The notes under the pieces: generated by a model | Database searches by the model: none | What the model was told of the DNA's origin: nothing | The model's input: only the letters and a program-made list of their open reading frames with translations | Made by a program: the position numbers and the translations under genes | DNA from: a virus | Virus record (IMG/VR): IMGVR_UViG_3300032087_003063 | Coordinates: 1 to 28,976 of that record | Length of the DNA: 28,976 nt | Reading direction: 5' to 3' (one strand) | Shown here: piece after piece, positions 7,043 through 20,980 of the stretch | Layout: each line of letters begins with the position of its first letter | Position numbering within the stretch: the first letter of the stretch is position 1

Positions 7043-7080
7043 CTCCTCGACAAACTAGGTAAAAAGCACTATTATGTGCT

Positions 7081-7138
7081 ACGGACTTAAAATCCGTTGG
7101 TAGCAATACCGTGCCGGTTCGAGTCCGGCCCCGGGTAC
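7081..7138 (+). other. tRNA-Leu(UAA) 3'-half fragment (attP core identity block)
   Basis: The anticodon stem ACGGA/TCCGT (7081-7085, 7093-7097) encloses a 7-base loop with anticodon TAA at 7088-7090. A class II variable arm follows, GGTA-GCAA-TACC (7099-7110). The T arm is GCCGG-TTCGAGT-CCGGC (7113-7129). Then come the 3' acceptor strand CCCGGGT (7130-7136) and discriminator A7137. No matching ACCCGGG acceptor strand or D arm exists upstream; instead there is a small hairpin AGCAC-TATTAT-GTGCT (7065-7080). It is thus a fragment and not a functional tRNA gene. An open frame read antisense through it is the well-known spurious antisense-tRNA peptide. Confidence 0.9.
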
Positions 7139-7145
7139 AGAGGAG

Positions 7146-7171
7146 AAAAGGCTCTTTGTTGAGCCTTTTTT
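7146..7171 (+). terminator. Intrinsic terminator, rightward
   Basis: AAAAGGCTC (7146-7154) pairs with GAGCCTTTT (7161-7169), loop TTTGTT, continuing into a T run to 7171. It lies 9 bases after the tRNA-Leu fragment. It may be the phage's own stop for tail transcription, or a copy of the terminator behind the host tRNA gene that keeps the rebuilt tRNA properly terminated after integration. Confidence 0.78.
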
Positions 7172-7215: not shown

Positions 7216-8376
7216 TCAAGCTTCGCCTCTTGTTATGTGGTTATATGTTGCGCGGATCTGCTCGTTTACCATGCGCTGCGTATGGATTGAATCCGGTGCA
7301 TAGTGTGTCGTGACAACTGAATTAGTCTTATCGCCAATTGCAACTTTAGCAGCTTCAACTCCAGTATCATGGCGCCTTGCTAGCTGCGCTGATAATCTGC
7401 GCAAATCATGGCAAGTGAATGCAATACGCGTCTTTTTGTTCACGGATTTGATAATACTATTAAGCTTATCATACCCAATGTCTAATGGCCTTTTATGCCC
7501 AGCTAAGAAGTGCTTACGAAATATTGCGCGAACTTCTGGGTCCATATACTTCTTTGTACGCACTTTACCGCGCTTTTCAAGTATAAGCATTGTATTATTT
7601 TCAAAGTCAATGTGATGCCACTTTAGCTCCTTATCTCTGTTAAGATAATTACGCCCTATTAATTCCTTAGCTCGGCAGCCAGTAAATTTATACAGTGTAA
7701 TTATATCGCGTTCCTGCTCTGTAAGCTCACATTGATCTAAAGTAATAATTTCTTTATCTGTCCAGATCTTTATATCAATTGGATTAAGTTCAGCAGCTGT
7801 ATACTTATCTTGCCTTGTAAGGACCTCAAAAGATACCATACCAGTACCGTTAGATCCACCAGCTTGCATGGCCCACATAAATATATTACGCAGATCACGC
7901 AGATAACTATTGATCCCTTGTCGTGTCCTGCCAGCCATCTCTCTGTGCGTTTTATAAATTTCCCAGCCTTGCCTAAAGCCATCGTCTTTAGCGTGCGTTT
8001 TAACGCCTAATTGGCGCTTTAAGCTGCGAATTTTATCTACTGGTGTATTGTCTGGTATGATATCAATAAATGATTTCATTACAGTCTCGTATTTATTAAT
8101 AGTAAGCTGGCTAGCTTTGTTCACTAATACATTGCTGCGAAATGCATCAAATACTTCTGCTACTGTATACATCGTATTATTTTCTTCATATAGCTTGCGC
8201 CACTGCGGATTATTATTTTTAAAATATGTTTCAATTAGCTCCCATCGTAAAAACTCTTCATCTCTTTGCGCTTTTACCTTAAAGCCAATACGCTTTCTTT
8301 TACCAGTAGTAGGATCTGTATAATCCAACTTGTATGGTTTATTAGTGTCTGATTTTTTGTTATATGCTCTTGCCAT
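7216..8376 (-). CDS. int: Tyrosine recombinase, phage integrase
   Basis: A 386-residue site-specific recombinase expected to act on the adjacent attP and a host tRNA-Leu gene. The N-terminal about 65 residues are basic and likely bind the arm sites. Residues about 70-170 fit the SAM-like core-binding domain. The catalytic domain shows Arg235 (TGCRAKEL), Lys in RGKVRTKK (about 271-276), His323 and Arg326 (CHDLRR), and the nucleophile Tyr359 (TTHYAP). The position normally held by a second His or Trp is Asp349 (AIGDKT). The start is supported by AGGAGAG upstream. The gene ends 5 bases from the right arm repeats and is transcribed towards attP, a standard integrase-attP arrangement. Confidence 0.95.
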   Translation of the reverse strand: MARAYNKKSDTNKPYKLDYTDPTTGKRKRIGFKVKAQRDEEFLRWELIETYFKNNNPQWRKLYEENNTMYTVAEVFDAFRSNVLVNKASQLTINKYETVMKSFIDIIPDNTPVDKIRSLKRQLGVKTHAKDDGFRQGWEIYKTHREMAGRTRQGINSYLRDLRNIFMWAMQAGGSNGTGMVSFEVLTRQDKYTAAELNPIDIKIWTDKEIITLDQCELTEQERDIITLYKFTGCRAKELIGRNYLNRDKELKWHHIDFENNTMLILEKRGKVRTKKYMDPEVRAIFRKHFLAGHKRPLDIGYDKLNSIIKSVNKKTRIAFTCHDLRRLSAQLARRHDTGVEAAKVAIGDKTNSVVTTHYAPDSIHTQRMVNEQIRATYNHITRGEA

Positions 8377-13292: not shown

Positions 13293-13942
13293 GCAAATTT
13301 GCAAAGCATGGCCAGAAATATATATTAGCAGATGGGACCATAGCGCCTAGCGTTACTACATATATTAATGATCTTGGCTGGAATAAACAGACATTAGTCA
13401 ATTGGGCCAAGCGGCTCACATTTAGCGGACTCGATGCAGATAAAGTATTGCAGGATGCAGCAGAGACTGGGACTTTACTTCATTTAATGATTGAGGGTTC
13501 TATAAAGGGTTTTAAAGTAGATACAAAAGACTTTACCTATAACCAAGAAAAGCAAGCATTGAAAGCGTTTGTTGGGTATACAGATTGGGTAAAGAAAGTT
13601 GATTTTAAGCCATTAGCTAGTGAAGTAATATTAATTAATGAAGAGCAGCGAGTCGGTGGGACCGTAGACTGTATAGGGCGGATCGGAGATGATCTGGTAG
13701 TCATAGATTGGAAAACATCAAAATACGGTCCCTACAAAGAACAAATTATTCAGATTGCGCAGTATGTTCATATGTATGAACAAGCGCAGCCTAAAGCAAA
13801 TGTAGCATATGGCATGATACTCCGTTTCGGTAAGGAAGACGGCAAGTTTCATCAGCACAAGATAAAGAGAGAAAAGATCGATGCAGGAGTCGAAATCTTC
13901 AAACATCTTGTCGCGTTGAGGAACTTAAAATCTAAAGTTTGA
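13289..13942 (+). CDS. RecB/Cas4-type PD-(D/E)XK exonuclease
   Basis: A 217-residue nuclease with the complete motif set of the PDDEXK_1 (RecB-like) family. ETGTLLHLMIEG carries His65, GGTVDCIGRIGDDLVVIDWKT carries Asp127 and the Asp140-x-Lys142 pair, and QIAQYVHMYE is the Gln-x3-Tyr motif that follows. No Fe-S cluster cysteines of Cas4 are present. A phage enzyme of this type processes DNA ends for recombination or replication restart. It directly precedes the primase-helicase and overlaps it by 4 bases (TTGA). Confidence 0.82.
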   Translation: MSKFAKHGQKYILADGTIAPSVTTYINDLGWNKQTLVNWAKRLTFSGLDADKVLQDAAETGTLLHLMIEGSIKGFKVDTKDFTYNQEKQALKAFVGYTDWVKKVDFKPLASEVILINEEQRVGGTVDCIGRIGDDLVVIDWKTSKYGPYKEQIIQIAQYVHMYEQAQPKANVAYGMILRFGKEDGKFHQHKIKREKIDAGVEIFKHLVALRNLKSKV

Positions 13943-15807
13943 GCGCGGAAATATTTACCCAGCGTAATCACGCGGGTAATCGAGCTAGATGTCCAGAATG
14001 TTCAGAAGATAAAAAGGATTATAGCGTTCAAATAGAGCCAGAGCATGCATATTGCCATCGGTGCAGTAAGCGCTGGTGGTTCGGGGAAAAAAGTGATTAT
14101 GAGCCAGAGACATATACAGTGACAAACACAAAAGAAATAAAAAGTAGCGGAGCAGTAGAAGAGAGCAACTTTGATGCGTGCCGCGAATCGTATAGAAAGA
14201 ATTTTGACTTCATCGTGCAAACTATGGGACTACCTTGGCCTAATAAGGCACTGGACCCGATACTCGGAATCGGAGCTAGAAATAACAAGGAAGAGATACA
14301 GTTAGTATTTAAGATCAATTCTGATCATGTAAAATACCATAAGGGTAAACAATTTGGCTCCGCAAGCTGCAAGATATACCCAGAGACTGTGTTGGACACA
14401 ACCCCCAAGGACAGCACGCTCATAGTCTGTGAGGGCGAAAAAGACGCAATCACAGCCTATTCACATGGTGCGCCGGCAATTACCTTTACCTCTGGCGCTG
14501 GCGCACTCCCTCAAGATATAAGCAAGCTGCAAGACTTTACGCAGCTGGTAATCTGCTATGATAATGATAGTAAGGGTAAAGAGGGTGCTGCTAAAATTGC
14601 AAAACAGCTGTTCAAACAAAATAAAAAACGCAAAATACGCATTATTGAGTGGCAAAATAAGCCAGAAACATATGATGTAACTGATTATTTTGCTGATGGT
14701 CATACATTACATGACTTTCATGGACTCATTGAAGCAGCTCCTGTATTTGGCAGCGATCCTAGAGACTTTGGCGGACTGCCGGAATATGATCCAGATACAT
14801 TTATGGAAGAGCGCAATCAAGAGGTAGTAGAGATATGTGAAGAGATACTACTTGAAAATGGGACCTCTGGCATCTCTGGCTCAAGCAATGTAGGCAAGTC
14901 AATACTGGCTTTGCAGTTTGCAGTTGCTGTGGCTATGGGGGTCCCATTTCTTACATTTAAGGTACCACGGCCGCGCAGGGTGCTGTTTGTGCAGTTTGAG
15001 ATGCTAGATACAATGATAGCACACAGGCTCAAGCCATTAAAAGATATGATGCTGCGGCAGTACCCTACAGCCGAAAAAGACTATAAGAAGAATTTACGGA
15101 TCACATCGGTAGCTAATCGCAAGATCTTTACTGATGCATATGATACAATAGAGGGTAACCTCATGGCAGCAGATCCACCGTTTGATGTACTGGTTATTGA
15201 TAACTTATATACATCTACTAGCGCAGACATAGCTAAAAACGATCAGCTTACTAAGTTAATGAGCCGTCTGGATCAGCTTAAAGAAGAATACGGCGTTGCT
15301 CTTATGCTTATATCGCATCATAAAAAGCAGGAAGAGAAACGGCCGCTAGATCATGGGATGGTCTTTGGCGGGTCTTATTATGTTAACTTCTTAGACAACT
15401 TGATTCAAGTAGCCAACACTGGTAGACATAAGTTCTTAAAAGTATTTAAGATCACAAAGGTGCGCTACCATAATCAATTCCATGATGTGCCGCTTGGCAT
15501 ACTACTTCATGCGGATGAAGAGAGTTTACATTTTGAATATAAAAAGCCATTACCAAAAAATGAAATGTACTGGTATCAAGAGCCGGAAGAATCGGAAGAA
15601 GAGAAAATATTAAATGCATTAGATACGCAGGGCGATAACTTTACATACAAAGATATGGCTACTGTTTTGGCTGATGAATTAAATATTACAAGCTCAAGAA
15701 GCGTTTATAAATGGCTTGATAAGCTTGAAACAATGGGACTGATTACAAAAGTGGAGCATGGTCATTTTGCTAAATTACCTAACGAATTGGAGAATTTCTT
15801 AAATTGA
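13939..15807 (+). CDS. Bifunctional primase-helicase (TOPRIM + RecA-like helicase)
   Basis: A 622-residue replication protein starting with TTG in a TTGA overlap. It has a zinc ribbon, Cys18/21 (CPEC) and Cys39/42 (CHRC). The TOPRIM motifs are CEGEKDA (about 164-170) and CYDND (206-210). The RecA/DnaB-type ATPase has Walker A GSSNVGKS (314-321), a Walker B strand ending DVLVIDN (Asp421) and the SHHKK motif 3 region. A C-terminal winged helix (about 560-610, SSRSVYKWLDKLETMGLI) may bind DNA or the origin. The order is that of T7 gp4-like primase-helicases. The long RepA-like central region and added HTH tail suggest an AAA_25-type ATPase. The iteron-like array starts 17 bases after its stop. 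Confidence 0.9.
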   Translation: MSAEIFTQRNHAGNRARCPECSEDKKDYSVQIEPEHAYCHRCSKRWWFGEKSDYEPETYTVTNTKEIKSSGAVEESNFDACRESYRKNFDFIVQTMGLPWPNKALDPILGIGARNNKEEIQLVFKINSDHVKYHKGKQFGSASCKIYPETVLDTTPKDSTLIVCEGEKDAITAYSHGAPAITFTSGAGALPQDISKLQDFTQLVICYDNDSKGKEGAAKIAKQLFKQNKKRKIRIIEWQNKPETYDVTDYFADGHTLHDFHGLIEAAPVFGSDPRDFGGLPEYDPDTFMEERNQEVVEICEEILLENGTSGISGSSNVGKSILALQFAVAVAMGVPFLTFKVPRPRRVLFVQFEMLDTMIAHRLKPLKDMMLRQYPTAEKDYKKNLRITSVANRKIFTDAYDTIEGNLMAADPPFDVLVIDNLYTSTSADIAKNDQLTKLMSRLDQLKEEYGVALMLISHHKKQEEKRPLDHGMVFGGSYYVNFLDNLIQVANTGRHKFLKVFKITKVRYHNQFHDVPLGILLHADEESLHFEYKKPLPKNEMYWYQEPEESEEEKILNALDTQGDNFTYKDMATVLADELNITSSRSVYKWLDKLETMGLITKVEHGHFAKLPNELENFLN

Positions 15808-15824: not shown

Positions 15825-15949
15825 GTAAAATATGTAAAATATGTAAAATATTATTTTACCTACATAGCTAAAGTAGCACATAGGCTCACGAAGAGATATT
15901 TTACATATTTTACTTTTTTTACACTTACGGACCGTCCGTGATATTTTAC
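15825..15949. repeat. Iteron-like array, candidate replication origin
   Basis: Three tandem copies of GTAAAATAT (15825-15833, 15834-15842, 15843-15851) are followed by a partial inverted copy TATTTTAC (15852-15859). Then come two tandem inverted copies ATATTTTAC (15896-15904, 15905-15913) and another at 15941-15949. A near match GTAAAATGT lies at 16016. Two 18-bp arms (15834-15851 or 15825-15842, with 15896-15913) form an exact inverted repeat. The palindrome ACGGAC-C-GTCCGT (15927-15939) sits among them. The AT-rich repeats directly after the primase-helicase gene are typical of phage and plasmid origins. A regulatory site is the alternative. Confidence 0.65.
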
Positions 15950-16171
15950 TCAAAATGTCCACTTTCACACAATTCTGATAAAAGTTGCGGATTCGCGCTG
16001 GAAACAGAAAATTCCGTAAAATGTATGTATGTAATTGGCTGGTGGCATGATCTAGATATTAAACATCATACCAGATGCTTTATGAAAATTAAAAAGCGCG
16101 ACCGCTTGGCTTGGCGCAACAAAATGATTAAAAATCAGCGCTTGCTAAAAAATAAAAATGCTAGGCGCTAA
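15938..16171 (+). CDS. Cys/His-rich small basic protein, unknown
   Basis: A 77-residue frame starting with GTG inside the palindrome of the repeat array; a shorter version could start at ATG 16025. The N-terminal half has Cys7 and His10 (CPLSH), Cys17, Cys29, GWWHD, KHH and Cys47 (TRCF), enough ligands for one or two zinc ions. The C-terminal half is very basic (KIKKRDRLAWRNKMIKNQR). A DNA-binding role at the adjacent origin would fit, but the start is weak and no family is recognised. Confidence 0.42.
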   Translation: MIFYSKCPLSHNSDKSCGFALETENSVKCMYVIGWWHDLDIKHHTRCFMKIKKRDRLAWRNKMIKNQRLLKNKNARR

Positions 16172-16289
16172 AATATTAAAATCAAGAAAATCAAAAAAAA
16201 CACCCCAAAAAATCGCAAATTTTTCTGGCCAGTGTAACATTTTGTGCCCTAGGTAGATCAAGACAATTCACAATTTGAGACACCAAAAA

Positions 16290-16308
16290 ACAGCTTTTTT
16301 TAGGCTGT
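16290..16308 (-). terminator. Weak intrinsic terminator for leftward transcripts
   Basis: Read on the minus strand: ACAGC, a 9-base loop, GCTGT, then a run of T. The stem is only 5 bp. It would back up the stronger hairpin at 16664 for the reverse cassette. Confidence 0.4.
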
Positions 16309-16407
16309 CATTTTGACACTTTGCCAGATCTGGAAAACACAAAAGCGGACCAGCTGCAGCGCACCAGATCAGCAGCGCAGCAGCGCGCCAGATCCGGCGT
16401 TGTGGAC

Positions 16408-16497
16408 CAGATCAGCGCAGCAGCTTAAAACTGCGCACACAATCCAAAAAACAGCGCAGCAGCGCGCGCAGATCAGCGCAGCTAAGCAGCTTAAAAC
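16408..16497 (+). repeat. Two-copy direct repeat in non-coding DNA
   Basis: Copy A at 16408-16431 is CAGATCAGCGC joined to AGCAGCTTAAAAC. Copy B at 16469-16497 has the same two blocks with five extra bases (AGCTA) between them. The spacing of starts is 61 bp. Function unknown; candidate binding sites for replication, partition or packaging proteins. Confidence 0.55.
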
Positions 16498-16657
16498 ATG
16501 TATTTTTTTGATGGTTTTAAAACGGCGTTTTTTTGCTTTTTTTTAAAATTTTGGAAAAAGTTAAAACGCCCACCGAGGGAAAACGCAAAGCGGCGCCCGG
16601 TCAAATGGGCCCGGACGGCCTAAAACGGCTGCGCAGCTGATAGCACTTAAGGCCAAA

Positions 16658-16687
16658 AAAAAACCGCTATAAATAGCGGCTTTTTTT
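16658..16687. terminator. Bidirectional intrinsic terminator
   Basis: Stem CCGCTA (16664-16669) with TAGCGG (16674-16679), loop TAAA, preceded by a run of A and followed by a run of T. It can therefore stop transcripts from both directions. It lies between the rightward replication operon and the leftward cassette that ends at 16791. Confidence 0.82.
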
Positions 16688-16790
16688 GCGTTTAATCTGG
16701 CTTTATTCAATCGGGTCTATATAATACCATATACTAAAACCGATAATTAGCCATAAAACAAGCTGTATATCTATAAGCGCCCCCCTTTCA

Positions 16791-17783
16791 TTAGTGCTGC
16801 GGTATAACTACCGTCAACTGGTTAAAATTTTCTTGATCCCCGCACGCATGGCCCTTGCTGGTACAGCTGCCGCACAGGCCCGGACAGATAAACACTTTTT
16901 GATCTGGGTAGCTGCTGCGGATCTCTTGAGCTGCTGCGCGGGTCATTTTCTTAGCTTTACCTTTTATGACTGCTTTCCAGCTCTTAAGAGTTTTAGCTGA
17001 TACCGGGACCGCTTCAAAGTTACCGCGCCAGATCGGCAGCGCTGCCGCTGCTTTATGGGTCGCGGTGGCTTCGTACTTGCTGCCGCTGCTGCCGTTCAGC
17101 GCGTAATTTGTGGGCCATTCGTAGCCGCTGCGCTCTAGCTCTTCGAATAAGTGCAAGCTCTTTGAATAGCCATATATTTTAAGCTGCGGGAATTCCTTAG
17201 CCAGATCCAGCCACCAGCGCAGCAGCTCTAAGCTGCTAAAATCGCCGTCTACATACAAGCGCAGCGGTATGTTATCCAAGCCGCGGTAGATAGGGCGCTG
17301 AAGCTCTTTTTTTAGCTCTTGCTTAATGATCTGGCGCCCGGCTGGAGTTTGCTCTAATACGGTGTTTTGAAGCTGTCTAAGATACGCCGCTGGATAGCGC
17401 CAAGCTTTGACACTATAACACCAGCCGGTAAATTTGTTTTTAGCTAGGACCCAGCAAGATCCAGCGCCGGGACAATTGAAGCCGGGTAAAGTGGACCAGC
17501 TTAAAAACGGCAGTTTGCCATTGCCCGGCTGGAATAGCTTAAACGGCGGTGCGGCCAGTTCTTTTTTTAGCGCTTCTTTTGTTCCGGGTATACCGGACAG
17601 GACCAGCGCCCAAACATAACGCGACAGTTTAAAAGTGTAATTATACCAGCTGTTTTTTTGCTTCAGCGCTGCTTCATATTCTAATTTACATAGCTGTTTA
17701 TATACTGTGCGTAGATCCCAGCCGCTGAGCTTCATTGCTGCTGTTATTCTCATTAAAAATGATCTTTTAATAGTCTCTTTCAT
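16791..17783 (-). CDS. GP88-like Cys-rich protein
   Basis: A 330-residue protein, last gene of the reverse cassette. The pattern TLPGFNCPGAGSCWVLAKNK then WCYSVKAWRYP (Cys104, Cys110, Cys122), LRLYVDGDFSSLELLRWWLD (about 174-193), LKIYGYSKS, and a final ICPGLCGSC...HACG cluster (Cys300/304/307/314) matches the layout of the phage Gene product 88 family (PF17338-like). Seven conserved cysteines suggest bound metal, perhaps an Fe-S cluster, and the GDFSS strand looks like a TIM-barrel-type active-site loop. The biochemical role of this family is not established to my knowledge. Ribosome binding site AAGGA. The gene is richer in GC and Leu/Ala/Lys/Trp codons than its neighbours, suggesting a different origin. 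Confidence 0.72.
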   Translation of the reverse strand: MKETIKRSFLMRITAAMKLSGWDLRTVYKQLCKLEYEAALKQKNSWYNYTFKLSRYVWALVLSGIPGTKEALKKELAAPPFKLFQPGNGKLPFLSWSTLPGFNCPGAGSCWVLAKNKFTGWCYSVKAWRYPAAYLRQLQNTVLEQTPAGRQIIKQELKKELQRPIYRGLDNIPLRLYVDGDFSSLELLRWWLDLAKEFPQLKIYGYSKSLHLFEELERSGYEWPTNYALNGSSGSKYEATATHKAAAALPIWRGNFEAVPVSAKTLKSWKAVIKGKAKKMTRAAAQEIRSSYPDQKVFICPGLCGSCTSKGHACGDQENFNQLTVVIPQH

Positions 17784-17798
17784 GTGGTGTAGTTCCTT

Positions 17799-17882
17799 TT
17801 ATTTATTCTTAATTAATAGGTAAGCATTCCAAACAATAAGCGCCCAAGCTAGGGCGCCTATTGTATAGCCTAGCCAGATCAT
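17799..17882 (-). CDS. 27-residue single-pass membrane peptide
   Basis: A tiny open frame whose ATG overlaps the stop of the upstream 169-residue gene as ATGA, a classic coupling signal; it ends 15 bases before the GP88-like gene. It encodes MIWLGYTIGALAWALIVWNA and then YLLIKNK, one membrane span with a positive C-terminal end. It is far below usual gene-calling limits. The DNA also contains a GC hairpin (GCGCCC with GGGCGC), so part of the region could be structural. A holin-like, antiholin or regulatory membrane peptide is possible. Confidence 0.55.
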   Translation of the reverse strand: MIWLGYTIGALAWALIVWNAYLLIKNK

Positions 17883-18388
17883 TTACTGGCCTCTTTTGGC
17901 TGGTTTGCTTCTCTTATAGACTCCTCCAGATCGCCGCGCATGCAGCCAAACAGCCACCGCGGCGCAATAACGCCGCCGACCTCGTCCGGATCTATTTTAT
18001 ATAGCTGTTCAGCTGCTGCCATCATTGCAGCGCATGCGCCGGCTATAAAATCGGATCCGCTTTCAATGCCGATACCATCAGCGCGGCTTATGAACTGATT
18101 TTCTACATATTTATATGTAGCTAAACGCCATTCATTATACCGTACCGGGTCCGCTGGGATTGTCTTTTTTGCGTCTTCCAGCATTTTTTCAGCTGTCTCG
18201 ATTGCGTCCTCTTTACAGTCTGTATGATATCTGGCGGGGTCGTATTCTATCATTACGCCAGCACCGCGGCCGCTGGTGTGCGGCCTCTCTTGTAGATGAT
18301 ACAGTTTAACTGTGTACTCGTTATATCTAGGCTGTTTGTATACTTTAACGCCAGCTCTAGCTGCTTTTATTTCATGTATTAAGTGCAT
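17879..18388 (-). CDS. Accessory protein of unknown function
   Basis: A 169-residue protein. The N-terminal third is beta-like (VKVYKQPRYNEYTVKLYHLQ). The middle is helical (DAIETAEKMLEDAKK, then EWRLATYKYVENQFI) and the late part is small-residue-rich (GIESGSDFIAGACAAMMAAA). No catalytic motif or signal peptide is visible. It has a GAGAGGAAAA ribosome binding site and lies 14 bases after the membrane gene. Composition is GC-richer than the core genes, as in the GP88-like gene, so the two probably travelled together. Confidence 0.6.
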   Translation of the reverse strand: MHLIHEIKAARAGVKVYKQPRYNEYTVKLYHLQERPHTSGRGAGVMIEYDPARYHTDCKEDAIETAEKMLEDAKKTIPADPVRYNEWRLATYKYVENQFISRADGIGIESGSDFIAGACAAMMAAAEQLYKIDPDEVGGVIAPRWLFGCMRGDLEESIREANQPKEASK

Positions 18389-18402
18389 GTTGTTTTCCTC
18401 TC

Positions 18403-18582
18403 TTATATGCTTAAAAAAAGTGTTGTGAAATAGACCGGCCCAACTACTAACATAATCAATAATACTAAATTGAATATGTTTAAGCCGCTTTGCTCTATTG
18501 TTAATGCTACCTTATATATAAATAGGGCCCAGTGTGCCAGACACCCTATAATGATAAAACTAGCTAAAATGATCAATTCCAT
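18403..18582 (-). CDS. 59-residue two-span membrane protein, holin candidate
   Basis: First gene of the reverse operon, with an AAAGAGAG site upstream. It starts MELIILASFIIIGCLAHWAL, then a short polar loop (TIEQSGLN), then a second hydrophobic span (LVLLIMLVVGPVYFTTLFL). Two spans with few charges in under 60 residues fits small holins or other phage membrane modulators; there is no dual-start motif. No endolysin adjoins it, so a lysis role is unproven; superinfection exclusion is an equal alternative. Confidence 0.6.
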   Translation of the reverse strand: MELIILASFIIIGCLAHWALFIYKVALTIEQSGLNIFNLVLLIMLVVGPVYFTTLFLSI

Positions 18583-18654
18583 GTTTTTTTACTCTCTTTC
18601 CGGGCCGGTGGCCCTGTTGTTTAATTGTAACATATCCTATTCTATATATAACGC

Positions 18655-18681
18655 AACATAAAAGCAACAGTTAATTGTCAA
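18655..18681 (-). promoter_or_regulatory. Promoter for the reverse cassette
   Basis: On the minus strand TTGACA (18676-18681) is a perfect -35 followed by ATTAA. A TATGTT -10 (18655-18660) lies 15 bp on. TATATA words lie further downstream. It would drive the membrane protein, the 169-residue protein, the membrane peptide and the GP88-like gene. The -35 falls in a TTGTCAACA word that is also found at the repressor operator (9263) and at 18975, so it may be under the same control. Confidence 0.5.
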
Positions 18682-18691
18682 CAGCTTTTAG

Positions 18692-18863
18692 ATGATCAAA
18701 CTAGCCGCGAATCAAACAAAAATAGATCAGCGGCGGAACTTCTGAAGCTTTAAAAGATCTGGCACAATTTGACACAATGACAGATCCAGCTCTGGATGTA
18801 GTACCTGCATCTACACATATTGCTACAGATACAGAGGTCCGCCCTCGTAGAACGTACGGATAA
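18692..18863 (+). CDS. Possible small gene needing a +1 frameshift, or a decayed gene
   Basis: A frame from ATG 18692 encodes MIKLAANQTKIDQRRNF and then UGA (18743-18745). The +1 frame carries on in a protein-like way from there (EALKDLAQFDTMTDPALDVV), ending at 18861-18863 just inside a small hairpin. A slip at UUC-UGA would give 56 residues. Without the slip, only a 28-residue frame from ATG 18777 remains. No ribosome binding site is visible at either start, so confidence is low. Confidence 0.25.
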
Positions 18864-18875
18864 TCTATCCGTTTT
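18856..18875 (+). terminator. Small hairpin, weak terminator
   Basis: ACGGATA (18856-18862) with TATCCGT (18866-18872), 3-base loop, followed by TTT. It lies at the end of the small frame at 18692-18863 and before the late control region. The T run is short, so efficiency is uncertain. Confidence 0.4.
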
Positions 18876-19010: not shown

Positions 19011-19349
19011 ATGAGCAAAGAATGGCATAACTTAAGTGATGCGGATGCCGCTTTGTTAGAAGATGCCATAACGCAAAGCGATGAATACGCAACCAAGCTA
19101 GCAATATTCAAGTCTGGACTAATAGAACCAGAGCTACGCTGGCTGCAACTTGGCGCACATCAGATCTACGATGAGCTAAGTGACCGCGAACGCACTGTAT
19201 TTAACATGAGACTATTACAGCACACATTTCCAATCATAGCAGAGACATTAGACATATCCGTTAGCTCCGCCAAAACATACTGGCGCCGCTGCATGGCCAA
19301 GTGCAACAAGCTAATATTGTCAACTAACCCGCCTATAAGTGATGAGTAA
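19011..19349 (+). CDS. Sigma-70-region-4-like / HTH regulator, probable late regulator
   Basis: A 112-residue protein. Residues about 57-100 read LSDRERTVFNMRLL..TFPIIAETLDISVSSAKTYWRR, the layout of a sigma-70 region 4 helix-turn-helix (first helix after the SDRE turn, recognition helix SVSSAKTYWRR). No regions 2 or 3 are present. As first gene of the packaging operon it could act as an activator binding near the -35 of the late promoter or of its own operon. ArpU/RinA-type late regulators have a similar size and position. It overlaps TerS. Confidence 0.65.
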   Translation: MSKEWHNLSDADAALLEDAITQSDEYATKLAIFKSGLIEPELRWLQLGAHQIYDELSDRERTVFNMRLLQHTFPIIAETLDISVSSAKTYWRRCMAKCNKLILSTNPPISDE

Positions 19350-19752
19350 AAAGAAAACACACGAAATAGATCCAGATCAAGTACGCATGCTGGCAAGCTT
19401 TGGCTGTACGATCATGGATATAGGTAAATATTTTCAATGCAGCGAATCTCTGATCCGCAAAAAGTATAAAGACGCATTTGAAGCTGGCGAGCAGGACCTC
19501 AAGCTCAAGCTACGCCAGAAAATGATGCGCATGAGCTTAGAGGATGGCAATACTGCAACTACAATATTTCTAGCCAAAAATTATCTTGGCATGAGCGACA
19601 AGACCGCCGTAGACCTCACTGGTAACCTTGAAACGGTGCTAAAAGAGGTCGGATTTGAAAGCAATCCGCTTGATCAAACAAATACTGAACAGGAAGAAGC
19701 TCTGGAAGCTCTTGGGGTACAACCCGACCCCGCAGCAGCTGGAAGTGCATGA
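19342..19752 (+). CDS. terS: Terminase small subunit-like protein
   Basis: A 136-residue protein (GTG at 19339 is an alternative one codon earlier). The N-terminal half carries a helix-turn-helix (VRMLASFGCTIMDIGKYFQC, then SESLIRKKYKDAFEAG). It continues with a long helix and ATTIFLAKNYLGMSDK, a motif common in TerS proteins. It would recognise the pac or cos site and deliver DNA to the large subunit. The acidic C-terminal tail overlaps the large subunit gene by 98 bases in another frame. Confidence 0.75.
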   Translation: MSKKKTHEIDPDQVRMLASFGCTIMDIGKYFQCSESLIRKKYKDAFEAGEQDLKLKLRQKMMRMSLEDGNTATTIFLAKNYLGMSDKTAVDLTGNLETVLKEVGFESNPLDQTNTEQEEALEALGVQPDPAAAGSA

Positions 19753-20980
19753 GTCCACTGCGCGCTACCGCGTAGTATGCATGGGCCGTAGATCTGGCAA
19801 AAGCTGGATGGCTGCACATGAGATATTACCGTGGCTGCTTACGCCAAATACACGCGGCTGGATCGTAGCTCCTAATTACAATCTTGGGCAAAAAGTTGCC
19901 AGAGAGGTAAAACGAGTTATTATGACGCAGCTCAAGCTTCCTATTGAATCCAAAAAAGAAATATCTGGCGATCTGTACTTTATGCGTCTAGCTGGACTGA
20001 ACTCTGAGCTATCAGTAAAATCGGCCGATGCGCCAGATTCTCTGATAGGAGAGGGAATTGATTATTTAGTAATGGATGAAGCTGCGCTAATTCCAAAAAA
20101 CACATATGAGATGTATCTTAGGCCAACATTAGCAGATAGGCAAGGCTGGGCGCTATTTACCAGTACTCCAAGAGGATTTAATCACTTTGAGCGCATGTTT
20201 CGCTTTGGTAAAGATCCCAAACACCCAGAATGGGAGAGCTGGCAAGTCTCATCTACGGACTCTCCGTACTTCAAAGATGACATAGAAGAATTAAAAAGGA
20301 CCTTAACCCATGAAACGGTATTACAAGAAATTTTCGCTGAATTTACAAGCTTTGCGGGCAAAGTATACCCCTTTGACCGTACGACTCAGATACAAAAGAA
20401 CCTTAAATACAACCCCGCTCTACCAACCTACTGCGGAATCGATTTCGGTTACCGCCACAGTTTTTGTGTGGTCCTGCAAGTAGACACCAGCACAGCTGGA
20501 CTACCAACCGTATACCAAATAGACGAAATATCGATGAAAAATGTCAAAACAGAAGACTTCGGTAAGATGATCAGCCAGCTGCCATACCATATTACAGCAT
20601 ACTACGGCGATCCAGCTGGCATTGGTACTAACCTGCAGACAGGTATGAGTGATTTTTCTGTATTTTTCAAGCAATACGGTATTCGTATTCATAGCCGCAG
20701 AGATAAGCTATCCAGAGATATACCTAACAGTGTTTCTCATGTGCGCCGCTGGTTTGAAGACGCAAACGGTGACCCACATTTCTTTGTAGCAGCTCGCTGC
20801 AAGGAATCTATACAATCCTATGAAAATTATAGATATCCCACGCATAAAGAGGACCAAGCATTGAAAGAAGTGCCGCTAAAAGACGGCAGGTTCGACCATT
20901 GCGCGGATGCGTTAAGATTTTTCTTTGTCAACTATTCTCCTATTAAGAGTAACAAAGCCGGAACAATCGATTGGTTATAA
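19655..20980 (+). CDS. terL: Terminase large subunit
   Basis: A 441-residue packaging motor. The ATPase domain has Walker A GRRSGKS (44-50), Walker B YLVMDEAA (Asp141, catalytic Glu142) and coupling motif TSTPRG (169-174). The nuclease domain has GIDFGYRH (Asp263), YYGDPAG (Asp319) and FDHCADALRFF with the third acidic residue. All key residues are present. The start is TTG at 19655 within terS; a second TTG at 19712 just before GYNPTPQQ is an alternative and would shorten the overlap to 41 bases. It ends in an overlap with the portal gene. Confidence 0.95.
   Translation: MKAIRLIKQILNRKKLWKLLGYNPTPQQLEVHESTARYRVVCMGRRSGKSWMAAHEILPWLLTPNTRGWIVAPNYNLGQKVAREVKRVIMTQLKLPIESKKEISGDLYFMRLAGLNSELSVKSADAPDSLIGEGIDYLVMDEAALIPKNTYEMYLRPTLADRQGWALFTSTPRGFNHFERMFRFGKDPKHPEWESWQVSSTDSPYFKDDIEELKRTLTHETVLQEIFAEFTSFAGKVYPFDRTTQIQKNLKYNPALPTYCGIDFGYRHSFCVVLQVDTSTAGLPTVYQIDEISMKNVKTEDFGKMISQLPYHITAYYGDPAGIGTNLQTGMSDFSVFFKQYGIRIHSRRDKLSRDIPNSVSHVRRWFEDANGDPHFFVAARCKESIQSYENYRYPTHKEDQALKEVPLKDGRFDHCADALRFFFVNYSPIKSNKAGTIDWL

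Follow-up and report, generated by a model that had tools for sequence, protein, structure and literature searches.

An antisense slot between the primase-helicase and terminase genes of a phage family carries exchangeable GP88-type proteins with a predicted radical-SAM-like fold

The stretch of DNA analysed here (the window), a virus record of IMG/VR, is a phage contig of 28,976 bases. In its right arm four open reading frames run on the reverse strand from 18582 down to 16791, opposite to all remaining genes of this arm. The original prediction interpreted this cassette as a moron, i.e. four genes forming one system with their own promoter and terminator and a GC-richer composition. This raises the question whether the four genes belong together at all and, if they do not, which part of the locus is conserved and what it may do. 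All four ORFs and their orientation were confirmed in the window, as were the small membrane peptides, the position of GP88 as the last large gene and its seven cysteines. The features of the window, including the edges of the slot in which the cassette is located, are as follows:

7079-7148: tRNA-like stretch beside the integrase, probable attachment site (matches to Marinimicrobia genomes)
7216-8376, minus strand: integrase, adjoining the tRNA-like stretch
13939-15807, plus strand: primase-helicase, left anchor of the slot and tree marker (HMM matches)
15938-16171, plus strand: 77-aa conserved protein, left edge of the slot (comparison of loci)
about 16655-16680, minus strand: intrinsic terminator of the cassette, hairpin followed by a T run
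16703-16774, minus strand: micro-ORF of 23 codons, probably starting at ATA, (M)DIQLVLWLIIGFSIWYYIDPIE, with conserved counterparts in L002 and L003
16771-16791, minus strand: remnant ATG AAA GGG GGG CGC TTA TAG of an 85-aa gene, complete in L002 and L003
16791-17783, minus strand: 330-aa protein of the GP88 family (PF17338) with a predicted radical-SAM-like half-barrel, a three-cysteine loop (C104/C110/C122) and a C-terminal CX3CX2C..HAC motif
17799-17882, minus strand: membrane peptide MIWLGYTIGALAWALIVWNAYLLIKNK, 27 aa, with an 89% identical copy in L004
17879-18388, minus strand: 169-aa protein, no assigned function, with relatives in several slots
18403-18582, minus strand: 59-aa membrane protein (ORF call), no relatives found
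18590-18745, minus strand: upstream control block TTGACA..TGTTGCTTTT, candidate promoter, conserved in four loci
18856-18872, no strand assigned: palindrome ACGGATAGATTATCCGT between the divergent units
19011-19349, plus strand: sigma-70 region 4-like protein, right edge of the slot (HMM match)
19339-19752, plus strand: terminase small subunit-like protein (profile match)
19655-20980, plus strand: terminase large subunit (TerL), uninterrupted in the window (HMM matches)

Within the cassette the start of the 27-aa peptide overlaps with the stop of the 169-aa gene (ATGA), and the 169-aa protein shows a weak match to phrog_7884 in its N-terminal third. Downstream of GP88 we noticed two elements that had been overlooked before: in the window the order 3’ of GP88 is the remnant of the 85-aa gene, the 23-codon ORF and the terminator. 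In L002 and L003 the complete 85-aa gene sits downstream of GP88. For the 23-codon ORF, ATA is the only sensible start and overlaps with the upstream stop as ATAG; changes between the window and L002/L003 are mostly synonymous or conservative. PADLOC gave no match for the three larger cassette proteins of the window and five cassette proteins of its relatives, and NCBIfam gave no call for any cassette protein.

The cassette does possess its own terminator: the hairpin with its T run was found by scanning and its stem is compensated in L003. A sigma-70 scan returned 4 promoter-like matches compared to 4.9 in shuffled sequences. A palindrome similar to the one between the divergent units, which is a possible operator, is present in L002 and L004 while none was seen in L003. 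The predicted GC-richer composition applies to GP88 (0.489) and the 169-aa gene (0.476) relative to the window (0.392), but the 59-aa gene (0.322) lies below the window, so that the cassette is GC-rich in part and not uniformly. A non-coding stretch rich in repeated GCTGATCTGGTCC-like words, a possible origin of replication, lies between the terminator of the cassette and the primase side, at 16200-16640 and at the matching place in L002 and L003.

We analysed relatives of the cassette at two levels. A close search recovered three loci in which GP88 is 75-79% identical in the best segment, and family profiles gave 16 loci together with 323 matching stretches, 80 of which were fetched. In loci of the window's own phage family GP88 is antisense without exception and located between the sigma-like/terminase genes and the primase-helicase, with varying preceding genes; several other phage groups likewise carry it in opposite orientation to their terminase genes. 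Among the fetched loci the 59-aa gene has no relatives (its place is taken by a protein of 122-183 aa in L002, L003 and L004), the 27-aa peptide has one, in L004, and the 169-aa protein is represented in eight loci. The four genes therefore form no unit. They occur together in none of the fetched loci, the nearest to a full set being L004 with three of them, and a conserved four-gene system can be ruled out: the conserved parts are GP88 and its place alone. A membrane peptide of 40-44 aa ending in VKQERNQYKNTL recurs in the slots of several clades (L003 2019-2146; L222 10359-10481; L226 6215-6346; L230 10211-10342; L237 3499-3633).

In order to avoid selecting on GP88 itself, we fetched loci by their primase-helicase (the best 80 by score) and counted the 49 of these 80 that reach the sigma or terminase side. 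Exactly one protein of the GP88 superfamily, belonging to one of four GP88 subfamilies or to DUF7227, is present in 44 of the 49 slots: 15 contain the long GP88, 10 the phrog_1617-type, 7 the short GP88, 6 the fourth type (GP88d) and 6 DUF7227. Two further slots carry an unrelated protein (phrog_11344) and three carry none. Slot proteins are antisense in every case, and no GP88-type gene was found in the fetched flanks. Pfam assigns three of the slot types to GP88 with E-values of 1e-22 to 1e-42. Thus, the genomes of this marine phage family have an antisense slot between the primase-helicase and terminase genes that in 44 of 49 loci holds one of five exchangeable GP88-type versions.

The different versions do not simply follow the phylogeny of the phages. 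On the primase-helicase tree we counted at least 17 changes of slot type, compared to a possible minimum of 6 and about 30 for shuffled labels, in a sample that includes some loci from contigs already represented, two tree rows that are identical copies and one locus, L256, whose slot type rests on a partial gene. The most direct case is that of L251, L254 and L257: their flanks share about 95-96% DNA identity, whereas the slot interiors are unrelated and of three different types, i.e. the slot version has been swapped on near-identical backbones. Cassette genes furthermore share short clade-specific leaders ahead of their start codons (AAAGGATAGACAAC.. or AGAGAGGTAATAA before the ATG), and the L233/L236 group additionally features repeated terminator-like hairpins (L233 8490-10040; L236 3880-5580; slot edges of L251/L254/L257). 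Judging from their sequence, the shared leaders and hairpins could serve recombination, as in exchangeable gene cassettes.

These observations bear directly on the moron interpretation, in which the prophage would express the cassette, and the membrane peptides together with GP88 would shut out other phages or modify the host surface (lysogenic conversion). An antisense unit with its own terminator, the membrane microproteins, an integrase on the same contig, the GC offset of two genes and the exchanged content all agree with such a role. Yet morons are sporadic and dispensable among close relatives, while GP88-type genes fill 44 of 49 loci, and a slot that is almost never empty does not fit an optional moron. 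The membrane proteins are moreover the least conserved parts of the cassette, and promoter-like matches do not exceed those in shuffles. We therefore consider a classical moron unlikely; host interaction or phage exclusion, much as originally proposed, may well be what the cassette serves.

We examined the GP88 protein family further. The window protein is a member of PF17338 (E-value 7e-16, 59.1 bits, cut-off 24.4), and all 50 aligned relatives match this family at E ≤ 1 (best 1.7e-21). Its seven cysteines (C104, C110, C122, C300, C304, C307 and C314) are 90-100% conserved in the alignment of the 50 relatives, with C104, C110 and C122 being invariant. The spacing of these three is CX5CX11C in the window protein and CX5CX3C in shorter relatives. 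GP88 proteins (PF17338, phrog_1392, phrog_1617) are known from numerous phages, from archaeal viruses and from some plasmids. We found no published function in the literature on GP88, PF17338 and DUF7227, and no solved structure related to GP88 by sequence. Besides GP88, the PF17338 HMM recognises DUF5131 (Gp37/Gp68) genes at the coordinates of the DUF5131 HMM itself, in several cases over the curated cut-off, which joins the two families, despite a negative hhalign comparison between GP88 and DUF5131. DUF7227 is a Pfam family of its own, and GP88 matches to it are sub-threshold only.

Two structural models were generated. Model 1 was calculated by AlphaFold2 on the 50 aligned GP88s (pLDDT 90.8), model 2 by AlphaFold for the divergent GP88 of L064 (pLDDT 91.9). 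When model 1 was compared with the PDB by VIA-align, spore photoproduct lyase ranked first with a Z-score of 8.4 over 198 residues, followed by other radical-SAM enzymes. For model 2 all of the first 15 matches are radical-SAM enzymes, among them spore photoproduct lyase (Z 8.4), QueE (6.9), pyruvate formate-lyase (PFL) activase (6.7) and E. coli QueE (6.5). VIA merely re-ranks the candidates supplied by Foldseek, and Foldseek alone gave no significant match in the PDB for model 1 or model 2; the partial (beta/alpha)6 barrel seen in both models is thus suggestive. Against viral models, Foldseek retrieved GP88 members and then, at weaker E-values, Gp37/Gp68 and DUF7227 proteins. In the model the loop that follows strand 1 contains C104, C110 and C122; the C-terminal strand ends are enriched in invariant residues (23 compared to 14.3 expected, P = 0.002).

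At the sequence level, the Radical_SAM HMM (PF04055) matched none of the 50 GP88 members, and profile-profile alignment of GP88 with a radical-SAM alignment (hhalign) gave only a short match in the cysteine motif, i.e. no sequence-level link. Because of its non-canonical cysteine spacing and the lacking Radical_SAM HMM and profile matches we do not file GP88 as a member of the radical-SAM superfamily. On the basis of the models we nevertheless regard a radical-SAM-like fold as likely and assume that GP88 probably works like a radical-SAM enzyme; that it performs Fe-S/SAM catalysis is slightly favoured. Alternatively, GP88 could be a non-catalytic metal-binding protein (Zn or Fe-S) with a structural or regulatory task, e.g. 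a regulator at the boundary of early and late genes. Its seven conserved cysteines, the fixed place beside the sigma-like and terminase genes and the missing HMM match would be compatible with this. However, a confidently predicted half-barrel with invariant polar residues at the C-terminal ends of the strands corresponds to the layout of an enzyme active site, and repeated replacement by divergent versions would be unusual in a core regulator, which renders this explanation improbable.

If GP88 is an enzyme, its substrate might be a nucleic acid, a nucleotide, a small molecule or a host protein. We tentatively name nucleic acid or nucleotide as the substrate, without regarding this as the probable outcome. 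A more specific version of our preferred explanation, in which GP88 would synthesise or alter a modified DNA base or nucleotide belonging to the phage, with an effect comparable to that of 7-deazaguanine modification, is more doubtful still. The nearest folds, spore photoproduct lyase acting on DNA and QueE from the 7-deazaguanine pathway, as well as the location of the slot between replication and packaging genes speak for it. The Z-scores, however, are middling and uninformative with regard to the substrate, no queuosine or deazaguanine genes were recognised when reading through the ORF list of the window, and GP88 is not mentioned in the published study of phage 7-deazaguanine (PMC6884629). 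A 7-deazaguanine transferase of the DpdA2/TGT type was also considered and tentatively set aside: GP88 is absent from the same study, and TGT is not among the structural matches listed. As a further alternative GP88 could act as a radical-SAM maturase with the neighboring ORFs of 23-60 aa as its peptide substrates. Micro-ORFs indeed lie beside GP88 in the window and in its relatives, and the RiPP maturases SuiB, SkfB, EpeE and CteB are among the structural matches of model 2. Since these small ORFs vary between close relatives and are mostly membrane-like without a common core or leader, this is the least probable of the explanations considered.

Taken together, we give about even chances to our preferred explanation, namely that the slot is an exchangeable antisense accessory site carrying one GP88-superfamily protein, predicted to be an Fe-S radical-SAM-like enzyme, which is used against the host. 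According to the two confident models GP88 would form a radical-SAM-like half-barrel in which the three-cysteine loop follows strand 1, strand 2 ends in a GD(F) motif and the C-terminal ends of the strands carry conserved residues. The three cysteines would hold a 4Fe-4S cluster, and GP88 would carry out SAM radical or related redox chemistry. That this reaction is directed at the host is suggested by the swapping: near-constant occupancy by one superfamily, together with frequent swaps, is in keeping with constant use of a varying version, as in an arms race. Most likely, the altered molecule would be a nucleic acid of the phage, a nucleotide or a target in the host, which would allow the infection to survive a host-specific defence. 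A role in host interaction or counter-defence as such is a serious candidate at slightly less than even chances.

The host of the window phage is probably a member of the Marinimicrobia (SAR406), for which the sequences give moderate support. L103, a locus of the same phage family, is located on a contig labelled Marinimicrobia bacterium (isolate AG-470-O07). In addition, two Marinimicrobia genomes match the tRNA-like stretch beside the integrase with 97% identity across about 70 bases, compared to a best match of 88% over 56 bases among 60 genomes of another phylum.

While comparing the loci we noticed that, among the distinct TerL sequences found in relatives, roughly half are interrupted just before Walker B, between SLIGEG and IDYLV (L002, L003, L004, L011, L012, L013, L016, L018, L029, L037, L045, L049, L052, L103, L228, L230, L233, L235 and L242). 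The inserts comprise 24-52 bases, and their lengths modulo 3 take all three values. Behind the last sense codon lies a hairpin, which often begins at a TGA directly adjoining this codon. As judged by eye, almost every variant, the exceptions being L230 and L242, resumes the frame behind a codon that is synonymous with the last sense codon. The TerL gene of the window shows no insert at the homologous place, and no such insert was seen in other genes of the relatives that are homologous to the window. Scanning other viral contigs for bypass-like hairpins with an unspecific pattern yielded no convincing further case among the matches listed. Translational bypass is known from gene 60 of phage T4. 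The TerL hairpin inserts resemble this system and look like candidate translational bypass elements; they merit separate study.

Comparing GP88 and its slot with known systems, the window protein belongs to the GP88/phrog_1392/phrog_1617 families by HMM, in which a fixed, swappable antisense slot appears to be unrecorded, as our search returned no earlier record of it. DUF5131 (Gp37/Gp68, PF07505) and DUF7227 (PF23872) share the order of motifs with GP88 (three cysteines with CY, D-F/GD, YTK/LTK) and differ in cysteine spacing; the DUF5131 genes found here come from cellular genomes, and DUF7227 occupies the GP88 slot in six loci. It is conceivable, although we hold it to be rather unlikely, that GP88, DUF7227 and DUF5131 constitute a large unrecognised group of radical-SAM-fold enzymes, of which each slot carries one interchangeable member, exchanged when hosts change and serving in counter-defence or in the modification of DNA or nucleotides. 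If GP88 is indeed a radical-SAM-like enzyme, this would provide testable biochemistry (Fe-S, SAM) for widespread phage families of unassigned function, and near-identical phages differing mainly in slot version would represent a natural experiment that may reveal the purpose of the protein. With radical-SAM enzymes such as spore photoproduct lyase, QueE, PFL activase and the RiPP maturases, GP88 shares the predicted half-barrel and a cysteine loop after strand 1; in GP88 this loop lacks the canonical CX3CX2C, and there is no Radical_SAM HMM match. Phage morons and anti-defence hotspots resemble the slot in being antisense accessory units with their own terminator, swapped content and many tiny ORFs. 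In contrast to the unrelated genes found there, the slot described here is nearly always filled, and by a single protein superfamily.
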